Source: Pseudomonadota bacterium
GTDB taxonomy: Bacteria > Pseudomonadota > Gammaproteobacteria > Pseudomonadales > Halieaceae
Assembly (NCBI GenBank): GCA_002862405.1
Contig: PKCZ01000034.1
Span: 1 to 40,536, forward strand
Direction: 5' to 3'
DNA: 40,536 nt
Of this stretch, positions 1,479 to 32,146 are shown in pieces. The notes beneath the pieces are model-generated. The model was not told the origin of the DNA and did no database searches. It saw only the letters and a program-made list of their open reading frames with translations. A program made the translations under genes and the position numbers. Numbering within the stretch: position 1 is the stretch's first letter; every line of letters begins with the position of its first letter.

Positions 1479-1688
1479 ATGAACACAAGACGCGTTAAGC
1501 TTATAGCTCTGCTCTGGTGGGTCCTTCCAGGTTCATTACTGGCCACTGGTATTGGTGATATGACCGTCACGTCGTACATCAACACGGGTGATAAAGCGGG
1601 CGCCGCTGATTTATTGCAAACGGTGCTTTCCTCGAGAGCCGAGGCGCAGCGTGAGCACGCTCAATCGTTGTTAGACAGCCTCGAATAA
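1479..1688 (+). pseudogene. fimV-like remnant: signal peptide/GIGDMTV N-terminus joined to the C-terminal GDKAGAADLLQ repeat region (69 aa)
   Basis: Sits between asd and truA, where many gammaproteobacteria carry fimV. The translation combines a FimV-like N-terminus (LLATGIGDMTVTS) with a FimV-like C-terminal domain (SYINTGDKAGAADLLQTVLSSRAEAQREHAQSLLDSLE) without the large middle. Confidence 0.55.
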
Positions 1689-27280: not shown

Positions 27281-27889
27281 TTAAACATTTACGTTTAAGA
27301 TTGCCCGGGTGGCGGTGCGTAGCATGGCTTCGGCGTCTGCGTCGTGGTCAAAGGTGTCCAACAAGCGGTTGTGTTGCAGCGTGGCAATGCCATGCGCGGC
27401 TGACCATAATAGCGTTGCGGTCTGTAACGAGGTCTCTACAGACTCGGGACGTTGCTTTCGCAAGTAAAGCTCGATTGCTTCGTGAAGCACCTGAAACCCT
27501 GTTCGCTTCGCACGTGCCTCCGCTCTTCGCTCTTCAGCGTCTCCATGGTTTTCCCACATCAGGCCAAAAAACGCTTTTTTGTCCATAGCGAAACGCAGAT
27601 ATGCGGACCCAAGCGCGTCAATGTGAGCGAGGGTGCCAGGAGCGACAGAATCTTGCGCGTCCGTGGTGTATTCCATGATGCCAATATGGGCAAGCTCCCT
27701 TACTGCTGTAAGCAGAGCATCCTTGTCCTTAAAGTGACGGTAGAGGGCTGGCGAGCTAACTCCTACCCGTTTTGCTACCTGTGCAATGGTGATGTCGTAG
27801 CTGCCGATGCTTTCGATGAGTTCAGCAGCTGCAGTGATGGCGCAATTGCGCAAATCACCGTGGTGGTAGGGCGCAACCGATTGGTTCAT
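27281..27889 (-). CDS. TetR/AcrR family transcriptional regulator
   Basis: HHGDLRNCAITAAAELIESIGSYDITIAQVAKRVGVSSPALYRHFKDKDALLTAV is a TetR_N HTH; start overlaps the RND gene stop by 4 nt. Confidence 0.93.
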   Translation of the reverse strand: MNQSVAPYHHGDLRNCAITAAAELIESIGSYDITIAQVAKRVGVSSPALYRHFKDKDALLTAVRELAHIGIMEYTTDAQDSVAPGTLAHIDALGSAYLRFAMDKKAFFGLMWENHGDAEERRAEARAKRTGFQVLHEAIELYLRKQRPESVETSLQTATLLWSAAHGIATLQHNRLLDTFDHDADAEAMLRTATRAILNVNV

Positions 27890-30800
27890 GTCAGTGCTCC
27901 CCTAGGCGCCTTCAGCTGAGCACGTTCTATTCGGCTGTCCTGCGGCGCTCCTAAAAGCACGTACGCAGATGGCACAAGGTAGAATGTAATAATAGTAGAG
28001 AGTACAACACCGCCTGCAATTGCCATTGCAAAGGGTGGCCAGAACTGACTGCCTTCAAGTATTAGTGGCAGGAATCCGCCGAAAGTGGTCAAAGTGGTCG
28101 ATATGATGTGGCGACTTGAGTCTAATACCTCGTCGCGCATGGCTACTCTGTTACCGCTGGCGGCTGCAGGCGATTGTTGAAACGATGTCAAAATAATTAT
28201 GCATGCATTAACAGAAACTCCAATTGACCCGAGCACACCAACCAAAGCCATGATCCCTAGAGGGTAACGAAAAAGTGCGAGTGTGAGGAAGCTCAGCCCG
28301 AAGGCACAAACGACGACACCGGCAGTGAGAAGGGAAAGTCGCCAAGAGTTGAATGTCAGCATAATCGTTGCCAACAACAACGAAAGCACTAGTCCCGCCG
28401 GTCCCATCAGGTCGTTCACAACGTCAGCCCGGTCAGCACTGTCACCACCAAAGTTGTAACGGTATCCATCAGGCAACGATATGGGGTTTATCTCCAGGGA
28501 TTGCCTTAGTAACTTTAACGCTTCCTCCGGAAGAACGCCTCGTGTCAAAAACGCTTGAACCTGATTAATTCGTTCCCCGTCTCTCCGCCCTATAGGCGGG
28601 TCATCCGGTACAATCTGTAGGTCACCGATAGCAGAAAGAGGTACAAACCGAGGTTTACCAAGTTTCCCGGGGAGAGGGATCTGCAAATTAAGCAGTTTAT
28701 CGCTGTCTTGCCAGACCTCACGCTCCAGTTTAGTTCTAACTCGCAACTGCTCGGTGTCTTCGATGACAGCGCCGCCAAACTGACCTCTGAGATATCCATC
28801 TACTAACGCGGCTACCTGTGCCCGTTCCAAACCAAGACGGCGGATTTTACCTTGGTCAAGGTAGAGCTCTAATTTCGGCGCAGCTGGGCTAATGGATAAC
28901 CTTGTATGAGTAATGTCAGGCAACTCTTGCAGGCGCTGCCTGAATTGCTCACCTAAGACACGTAGGGTGTGCGTATTGGGTCCGTAGAGGATAACCTCGA
29001 GCGGCGCATCCACTGGCGGGCCCTGATCAATACCCAATACTAGGATCTGCGCTTGAGGATACTTGCGATCAAAGTTTTTCTGTAGCCGCCTTATCAAAGC
29101 ATTTGTTTGATTCTCGTCTCGCGTGAGGACCATGCCCTCTGCCCAGCCCGGAGCATTACGTTTATTTGAACGAAGGTTATAGTAAAACGCGGGCGGACTC
29201 TCGCCAACAGACCAGTCGGCTCGACGAATGAGCGGCTCTGCCCTTAGATCATTATCGACCTGGCGCACGAGCTCCAGAGTCGCCTCAATGCCCGCACTTC
29301 TCGGCATCTCAATCCTAAGATAGAGCTGGTCGCGATCAGTGCCCGGGAAAAATTGCGCCGTGAGTGTCGATACACTGGCAAACCCAAGGATAGGCACTGA
29401 CACGGCAAGCAATATCGAAGCCAAGGGATATTTCAGGGACCAATCGATAGATGATGCAAAAGCCTCCTTCGCTTTTGGAAGGACGATCCCTGACCGCCAC
29501 CATGCGGCTCGAGCCATCAATGCGCCGGGCAATAAGCGACCGCCCAGTGCGGGGGTGATCGAGAGCGCCAGGAGTAAACTCATAAAAAGCATTACAATCA
29601 CACAGGTCGCTAAGCTTCCTATGAAATCGCCAGCGGCGCCTTTAAGTATTGCCATCGGCGTAAAGGCGAACGCCGTGGTAATCGTAGCACTGACGAGAGG
29701 TATGGTCATACGTTTGACTGCTTTTTGCATTGCGTCTATCGCCTCATCGCCGTTGAGTAGGTGTTTACGGATCTCGTCGGTTATCACAATCGACCCATCA
29801 ACGAGAAGTCCAAGAGCCACTACTAGGCCGGTCATTGAAAACTGATGAATGGGTACGTCTAGATAGTTCAAGGCAACCATTGACATTAGAGTGCAAAGCG
29901 GGAGGCTGAGAGCGACGATCAATGCAGCTCGCCAACCCAAAGTCAAAAACAAGACGGAAACGACAATAATCACACCGGCGATAATATTTTTCGCAACCCC
30001 AGCTAAGCGCGCCTCCGTGTACCCGCTCTGATCATAGGTTGTCTCGATGACAATCCCTTCGGCTGCATTCGTGCGGTAGTCTTCAAGAAATGCATCGAAT
30101 TGCTTGCTGTACTTATCGACTTGATAGCCCTCCTTCATTTCCACCGCAATAAATACAGATCGACGTCCATTCGATAGGGCCAACCTCACAGGTGGCTCTG
30201 CTTCAGATTTAGTAATAGTGGCTATATCGCTAATTCGGATACCTGTGACGCTGTTAGCGTCGGCTTTAATAAACGTGTCTCTCACGGCTTGCGCATCGGT
30301 GAAATTGCCAGCAACTTCAATGGTTAGCGCATTCGTAGGTGAGGCAAGCTTACCCGCAGGTGTCCTCGCATCGGCCAGTGCCAATGTTCTTGCAACATCG
30401 TCTATCGAAAGACCCATTGTGCTTAAGGCTGAGCCATCGATCTCAATGTTAATCTCCTCGTCAGGTAAGCCGTAGTGTTTTACGCGGCGCGTTTGAGGCA
30501 CTTTGCGAGCTGCATCGGCCAGGCTAAGAGCCTCTCGTCGTAACAGCGACGGCGATATACTTACCCCCTCGTCGGCGCTGATAGATAAAATTTTTACAAA
30601 GGTCGTGAAGAGATCGTCGTCAAAAACGGGTTTGGTGGCACCGTCGGGTAGCTCAGCAGTAATGCGATCAATTTTACCCCGCAATTCTGACCAAACGCGC
30701 TTAATTTCAGCGCGGGGCAGTTTGTAATCAGCCTCGACCACGATAGTAGATACGCCACTGACGGAGCTCGAGTTGATCTGATCTACACTAGGATGCTCTC

Positions 30801-31011
30801 GCAGAGCGTCTTCAAGGGGTTTTGTGACTAGGCTCTCCACCCGCGCAGGGCTGGCACCGGGATAAAAGGTTTGGATCGAAGCAACGAAAGGTGTAATCGA
30901 GGGATCTTCCTGTCGACCCAAACTGTTGTAGGAAGTGAACCCCACAACAACGATGGAAAGCACGAGTAGGGCGAGGTAGCGCCCATTTTCAAATAGGCTT
31001 GAGGCAATCAT
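27886..31011 (-). CDS. RND efflux transporter permease (AcrB-like, 1041 aa)
   Basis: NGRYLALLVLSIVVVGFTSYNSLGRQEDPSI, FYPGASPARVESLVTKPLE, LGLLVDGSIVITDEIRKHL; downstream of an MFP gene. Confidence 0.95.
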   Translation of the reverse strand: MIASSLFENGRYLALLVLSIVVVGFTSYNSLGRQEDPSITPFVASIQTFYPGASPARVESLVTKPLEDALREHPSVDQINSSSVSGVSTIVVEADYKLPRAEIKRVWSELRGKIDRITAELPDGATKPVFDDDLFTTFVKILSISADEGVSISPSLLRREALSLADAARKVPQTRRVKHYGLPDEEINIEIDGSALSTMGLSIDDVARTLALADARTPAGKLASPTNALTIEVAGNFTDAQAVRDTFIKADANSVTGIRISDIATITKSEAEPPVRLALSNGRRSVFIAVEMKEGYQVDKYSKQFDAFLEDYRTNAAEGIVIETTYDQSGYTEARLAGVAKNIIAGVIIVVSVLFLTLGWRAALIVALSLPLCTLMSMVALNYLDVPIHQFSMTGLVVALGLLVDGSIVITDEIRKHLLNGDEAIDAMQKAVKRMTIPLVSATITTAFAFTPMAILKGAAGDFIGSLATCVIVMLFMSLLLALSITPALGGRLLPGALMARAAWWRSGIVLPKAKEAFASSIDWSLKYPLASILLAVSVPILGFASVSTLTAQFFPGTDRDQLYLRIEMPRSAGIEATLELVRQVDNDLRAEPLIRRADWSVGESPPAFYYNLRSNKRNAPGWAEGMVLTRDENQTNALIRRLQKNFDRKYPQAQILVLGIDQGPPVDAPLEVILYGPNTHTLRVLGEQFRQRLQELPDITHTRLSISPAAPKLELYLDQGKIRRLGLERAQVAALVDGYLRGQFGGAVIEDTEQLRVRTKLEREVWQDSDKLLNLQIPLPGKLGKPRFVPLSAIGDLQIVPDDPPIGRRDGERINQVQAFLTRGVLPEEALKLLRQSLEINPISLPDGYRYNFGGDSADRADVVNDLMGPAGLVLSLLLATIMLTFNSWRLSLLTAGVVVCAFGLSFLTLALFRYPLGIMALVGVLGSIGVSVNACIIILTSFQQSPAAASGNRVAMRDEVLDSSRHIISTTLTTFGGFLPLILEGSQFWPPFAMAIAGGVVLSTIITFYLVPSAYVLLGAPQDSRIERAQLKAPRGALT

Positions 31012-31021
31012 TGGTGGGTGC

Positions 31022-32146
31022 TCAATTGATCACGCGTATCGAGGGTACGATTTCGACAGGAGATCCAGGTGACAGCCGCTGCATGCCGGAGGCGACAACC
31101 TTTGCATCATCGGTGATCGTTCCTCGCACAAAGACGCGATCGCCCTCGCTGTAGATGACCTCTACACTTTCTCTCGCTGTAATGGTCTCACCGGACGCAT
31201 TTTTGCGCGTGATAAGCACAGTCCATAGTCCCTTGTCACCCTCAAGAAGGGCACTGAGGGGTAACCATCCGCCTGTTTCCGTGATATCCTCCTCGAATTG
31301 GAGTGCAACGGTTTGCCCGACGCGAGCAGGCGTGCCCTCAGGTAGGGTGAGAACAACGAGTACCGTCAATGTTTGGGAATCCACGTCTGCGCCCACACTT
31401 CGTAGTGTTGCTGGAACGGCTGTATCGTTGAGGTAGAGGCTGTACTGCTCACCAATCCGGGCGCTGTCAGCAAATTTTGGTGATATGCCAACGTGAGCCT
31501 CGCGCTCACCGACAGATACCAGGCGTAGGACCGGTACATTTGGGCCAATGATGCTTCCGGGCTCTCGCAGGGTCTTCGAGACGACGGCATCGAAGGGCGC
31601 GGTCAATTGGCTCTTTGCAACGACTATTTCTGCATTTCGGACGCTAGCCTGTGTGGTTTCAAGTCGAGCACGGGTAGCTTCAACGGTGAGACGTGCATCG
31701 TCGGCCTCCCTTTCTGAAACAAGATTCTGACTGAGTAGGCTGTTGATGCGTTCTAGGTTGAGTTCTGCAAGCTCGAGCTGAGCTGCCACTTCTTTCGATT
31801 GCGCCCTCGCAAGCGAGAGCGCGGCTTCTTGCTGGCGCGTATCAAGTTTACCAAGCTCTTGACCGGTGGTGACGAAATCACCCTCCTGTGCGGTGAGAGC
31901 GTCTAAGACGCCCGCGACCTCAAAACCCACATTGCTATCTGAGCTTGCCTCGACAACGCCTAAAAAGCGTGTCGTGGTCTTGTAACTGCGCTCCAGCTGA
32001 TAGGGCACAACAACGACAGGTAGGGGCTGTGCCTCGGTCGAGATGGTTGGTTTGACGTTTGCCTCGATTGCATCAGACCCGAACAGTACGATGCCGGCGG
32101 CACCGACAGCACTGAACAGGGTTGTAAAGAACATGCGTGATGTCAT
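31022..32146 (-). CDS. RND efflux periplasmic adaptor (HlyD/MFP family)
   Basis: FLGVVEASSDSNVGFEVAGVLDALTAQEGDFVTTGQELGKLDTRQQEAAL lipoyl-like half-motif; SQLTAPFDAVVSKTLREPGSIIGPNVPVLRL. Confidence 0.93.
   Translation of the reverse strand: MTSRMFFTTLFSAVGAAGIVLFGSDAIEANVKPTISTEAQPLPVVVVPYQLERSYKTTTRFLGVVEASSDSNVGFEVAGVLDALTAQEGDFVTTGQELGKLDTRQQEAALSLARAQSKEVAAQLELAELNLERINSLLSQNLVSEREADDARLTVEATRARLETTQASVRNAEIVVAKSQLTAPFDAVVSKTLREPGSIIGPNVPVLRLVSVGEREAHVGISPKFADSARIGEQYSLYLNDTAVPATLRSVGADVDSQTLTVLVVLTLPEGTPARVGQTVALQFEEDITETGGWLPLSALLEGDKGLWTVLITRKNASGETITARESVEVIYSEGDRVFVRGTITDDAKVVASGMQRLSPGSPVEIVPSIRVIN

Follow-up and report, generated by a model that had tools for sequence, protein, structure and literature searches.

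The 69-aa ORF located between asd and truA (positions 1479-1688, forward strand, ATG to TAA) in the window, that is, the whole 40,536-nt stretch of marine Halieaceae DNA analysed here, is very probably a non-functional relic of fimV, which a single in-frame internal deletion would have produced after the loss of type IV pili (T4P). FimV, a large protein, acts as a marker of the cell pole and contributes to the placement of type IV pili. Its domain layout comprises LysM-like (cell-wall-binding), transmembrane, acidic cytoplasmic and C-terminal parts (PMC12918733), and the FimV/HubP family, represented by TIGR03504, TIGR03505 and PF25800, includes FimV of P. aeruginosa and HubP of Vibrio and Shewanella. 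The gene relic appears to be real, recurrent and recent, and it is of a known kind, being a fairly ordinary case of decay. The literature searches returned no description of a lost fimV for Halieaceae, to which the related loci in GTDB contigs belong, several of them from marine metagenomes. Together, the close relatives form a natural decay series with intact fimV, four in-frame stubs of different sizes and a near-total deletion.

In the proposed order of events, the clade would first have lost its T4P genes, as indicated by the absence of pilQ and pilM, and this loss may have removed the main need for FimV, judging from work on P. aeruginosa. Subsequently, fimV would have been removed by repeated, independent deletions, the products of which are visible at the locus. 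In the source genome, one in-frame deletion of more than 500 codons would have left the signal peptide, with 12 residues of the mature N-terminus behind it, joined to roughly the final 35 residues of the C-terminal domain, and one lineage appears to have gone further, with almost the whole of fimV gone.

Genomic context

The gene order in the window, with names assigned by reading the sequences, is leuB (partial), asd, the 69-aa ORF, truA, trpF, trpB, trpA, accD and folC, followed by a gene for a SPOR-like protein, cvpA and purF. The upstream neighbour asd (aspartate-semialdehyde dehydrogenase; 401-1423, +) has orthologues that immediately precede fimV in other genomes of the genus, and the downstream neighbour truA (tRNA pseudouridine synthase; 1694-2524, +) has orthologues in relatives; the stub occupies the same position as the full-length genes of the genus. 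Only 5 nt (1689-1693, +) separate the fimV stop codon from the ATG of truA, and they contain no Shine-Dalgarno-like motif. Elsewhere in the window, an ordinary-looking RND efflux pump and membrane-fusion protein are encoded at 27886-32146 (-), adjoined by a gene for a TetR-like regulator (27281-27889).

Anatomy of the fimV remnant

The initial annotation described the ORF as a fusion of the two ends of FimV. Its C-terminal half indeed resembles the FimV C-terminal domain, as NCBIfam TIGR03504 (FimV_Cterm) matched residues 32-68 over profile positions 8-44 of 44 with 36.1 bits (E 5e-9), and a score above the curated cut-off of 30.65 bits means that the match is not due to chance. This remnant of the TPR-like domain (1572-1682, +), which retains most of the FimV C-terminal domain, also aligns with the solved structure 4MAL (phmmer, E 0.005), and it is the only TIGR03504 match across the source genome. 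The N-terminal half begins with a signal-peptide-like segment (residues 1-23; 1479-1547, +) that was aligned with the N-termini of the FimV of G066, an intact sister, and of a longer stub in G001, and in a Kyte-Doolittle scan the sole hydrophobic window of the stub begins at residue 8. It is followed by the opening 12 residues of the Ig-like FimV_N domain (GIGDMTVTSYIN; 1548-1583, +), which are identical in G001. The proposed FimV-like character of this half stood in the alignments to G066 FimV (E 1.2e-5) and to the G001 stub (76% identity over residues 1-42, E 3.8e-16) but not in the Pfam search, where PF25800 (FimV_N) had no match in the ORF because the retained segment is too short; the G001 stub is recognised by the same family with 51.6 bits. 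The N-terminus of G066 FimV, MGIRRFQFVALLFLVLTGRSMAIGVGDMTVSSYINQPLQ, matches MNTRRVKLIALLWWVLPGSLLATGIGDMTVTSYIN in the window as far as the junction, and residues 1-44 are the only part of the stub that matches the intact N-terminal 480 aa of this protein.

With 69 aa compared to roughly 520-830 aa in FimV/HubP proteins, the stub differs from them in what it lacks. The LysM-like/FimV_core profile TIGR03505 is absent from both the stub and the source genome, whereas FimV of G030 matches it at 54.2 bits. Hydropathy scans of the stubs detected no internal transmembrane segment, only the signal-like N-terminal stretch, while G066 FimV has a second hydrophobic segment near residue 353; comparison with the latter protein also shows that the long acidic cytoplasmic region is deleted. 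Without the LysM-like, transmembrane and acidic parts, the stub would be unable to function as a FimV/HubP landmark, and its C-terminal domain, which is normally cytoplasmic, would now follow a signal peptide. The sole Pfam match of the ORF, to RTP1_C2, was sub-threshold and taken as chance. A second fimV elsewhere in the source genome was rejected, as searches with TIGR03504 and with the intact G066 FimV found no other FimV part; the positive controls G030, G063, G066 and G006 were recovered in the same search, and for genome-wide absence the G066 FimV search was preferred over TIGR03505, whose source-genome search had no positive control.

Parallel reductions of fimV within the genus

The asd-truA interval was extracted from 57 same-genus genomes, of which 44 carry a long fimV at the locus or one of its ends, truncated where the contig stops, seven have a reduced fimV, and six could not be judged. 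The reduced set consists of in-frame stubs of 69 aa (source genome, G000), 109 aa (G001), 114 aa (G058) and 17 aa (G019, where MNTRRYAVGRSLLDNLN alone remains), and of a near-total deletion common to G017, G067 and G035 that leaves 37 nt between asd and truA. The interval of the latter three genomes (L049-L051) contains, immediately ahead of truA, a possible TTG-L-D-S-L-E-stop mini-ORF that corresponds to the 3' end of the former fimV. The stubs in G001, G058 and G019 share with that of the source genome the locus, the N-/C-terminal fusion design and the absence of T4P genes, but their breakpoints differ on both sides. For instance, the source genome retains fimV codons 1-35 plus roughly the final 34, and G001 retains codons 1 to about 82 plus roughly the final 27; as the retained parts are not nested, they must derive from separate deletions. 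A clean in-frame deletion of 1587 bp, with shared sequence of about 1 nt, distinguishes G058 from its sister G030, a complete genome with a 660-aa fimV ORF; the flanks of the two are nearly identical.

In a protein tree of asd and truA, from which G066 was left out, G000 and G001 group with support 98, the addition of G017, G067 and G035 has support 88, and that of G019 has support 100. Read from these sequences, the reductions represent at least five independent events, four in a six-species clade and one in G058. The closest outgroup that keeps fimV is G066, with a truA 84-85% identical to that of the source; its fimV is split between two contigs, the first with a 480-aa N-terminal part that includes FimV_N (119 bits) and the second with an intact C-terminal part at its edge. 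Because outgroups carry full-length genes, the idea that the clade ancestrally had no fimV between asd and truA was rejected. The presence of such full-length ancestors at the locus in sister genomes, together with the homology of both ends of the ORF to FimV, bears out the in-frame internal deletion originally suggested.

These successive, parallel deletions in relatives, with near-total loss as an endpoint and relaxed selection on the remnant, are similar to gene decay by internal deletion in the course of genome reduction. The difference is that all stubs keeping both ends are in frame; decay here did not proceed through frameshifts or stop codons.

Association with type IV pilus and flagellar genes

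A search for T4P genes, as the initial annotation had advised, found neither pilQ nor pilM in the source genome; with this genome included, PilQ and PilM matches over the cut-off are missing in all seven reduced genomes. T4P genes are carried by 35 of the 44 other genomes, and the remaining nine lack them yet keep fimV. The association of reduced fimV with T4P absence was significant (Fisher p 1e-4; p 1.2e-4 at completeness >=79%), but by descent it comes down to T4P being lost twice and fimV five times afterwards, and the p value makes the cases look more independent than they are; the link rests on two independent T4P losses and on draft genomes, and pilM and pilQ, being about 3.6 kb apart, are not independent markers. 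As nine T4P-less genomes keep fimV, the loss of T4P is permissive for fimV loss and not sufficient for it, and the existence of these genomes suggests that T4P were lost before fimV. In P. aeruginosa, FimV is needed for the positioning of PilMNOP and PilQ (PMC5285504). A possible pilM pseudogene, a fragment of 57 residues interrupted by a stop codon (G018:C24:10159-10329), was noted in a genome where fimV is still present, and it fits the pilus-first order.

The loss of fimV is tied to that of type IV pili and not to that of the flagellum. G000, G017 and G035 have a full-length FlhA, which in G001 was recovered in part, and flagellum loss was thus rejected as the trigger. FlhF could not be used as a presence test, because TIGR03499 matches were below the cut-off in all genomes. 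In the source genome, flhA and an adjoining flhF-like gene with such a sub-cut-off match (G000:C99:1115-3951) are present though FimV is gone. These observations suggest that some bacteria retain the flagellar gene flhA although no FimV/HubP is recognisable in them, and the clade may lend itself to testing how a polar flagellum is placed in the absence of FimV/HubP.

Selection and the origin of the short ORF

The selection check on the short ORF compared the stubs of G000 and G001, which differ by 8 nonsynonymous and 6 synonymous changes, as opposed to about 22 to 117 in asd and truA (p 0.001). In the C-terminal part the counts, which are small, are 4 nonsynonymous and 0 synonymous, compared with 7 to 57 in sister pairs with intact genes, two of these pairs sharing one genome (p 4e-4); dN/dS values for truA against G066 and for some other pairs were misaligned and were discarded. 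From the sequence comparison, purifying selection on the C-terminal domain of the stub appears to be lost. The absence of changes between the two genomes in residues 24-34 could hint at some retained constraint.

On the choice between a relic and a retained micro-FimV, which the initial annotation left open, the findings favour the relic. A working short peptide, secreted or membrane-anchored and with a reduced function, would agree with four independent stubs that are in frame with intact start and stop codons, three of them with a signal-like N-terminus, and with the identity of residues 24-34 in G000 and G001. It appears improbable, however, given that the stubs vary in size and in the parts retained, that close sisters have lost the gene wholly, that changes in the C-terminal domain are nonsynonymous only, and that the LysM, transmembrane and acidic regions are gone. 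Slightly less probable still is an assembly artefact, in which the true genome has a full-length fimV and the contig misjoins its two ends. The genomes concerned are drafts (209 contigs in the source assembly), fimV is split over contigs in G066, the fimV coding region of G027 (C108, L058) holds a run of N that marks a scaffold gap, and G001 bears a single-cell-like record name (AG-901-J11), such genomes being prone to amplification chimeras, so that its stub might be a chimera. At the presumed deletion junction TACATCAACACG (1575-1586, +), compared with both parental sides, the N-side TACATCAA and the C-side TACATTGACATGGGT have the 5-nt TACAT in common. Against an artefact, the longest exact repeats in intact fimV are 11 nt (between the two G066 ends) and 10 nt (inside the G030 gene), too short for usual assembly k-mers, which makes repeat collapse by an assembler unlikely. 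Moreover, several independent assemblies show different in-frame junctions, the reduction is associated with T4P loss, the G066 FimV search found no orphan FimV middle elsewhere in the source genome, and the 4:0 pattern in a C-terminal part without purifying selection is not expected from an intact gene wrongly assembled. In view of the N run in G027, fimV lengths from draft assemblies generally need care.

A further reading, tentative yet compatible with a relic, is that the stub is a translated leader serving only to deliver ribosomes to truA, with selection holding its frame and not its sequence. All four stubs that retain start and stop codons are in frame, for which the chance is 1/81, or 1/27 without the source-genome case, and truA starts between -14 and +6 nt relative to the fimV stop in each of the 43 genomes where its start could be located, a close spacing that holds throughout the genus; in most cases no Shine-Dalgarno-like motif is present. 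Ribosomes finishing fimV may help the translation of truA, and frame retention may be due to this translational coupling, under which frameshifts in a dead fimV would be penalised and start-codon-keeping stubs would stay in frame with the stop beside truA. Its extended form is marginally more doubtful: the stubs might be translated leader ORFs through which truA translation is tied to the upstream mRNA. A decaying fimV could then lose only multiples of three nucleotides, up to the point where a deletion restores a usable truA start right after asd. On the other side, four of four in-frame stubs give a p of only about 0.01-0.04, and G017, G067 and G035 keep truA 37 nt after asd without a fimV start, so the coupling cannot be essential. 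The in-frame pattern makes it easy to test whether a dead gene is constrained in how it shrinks by coupling to a housekeeping neighbour.
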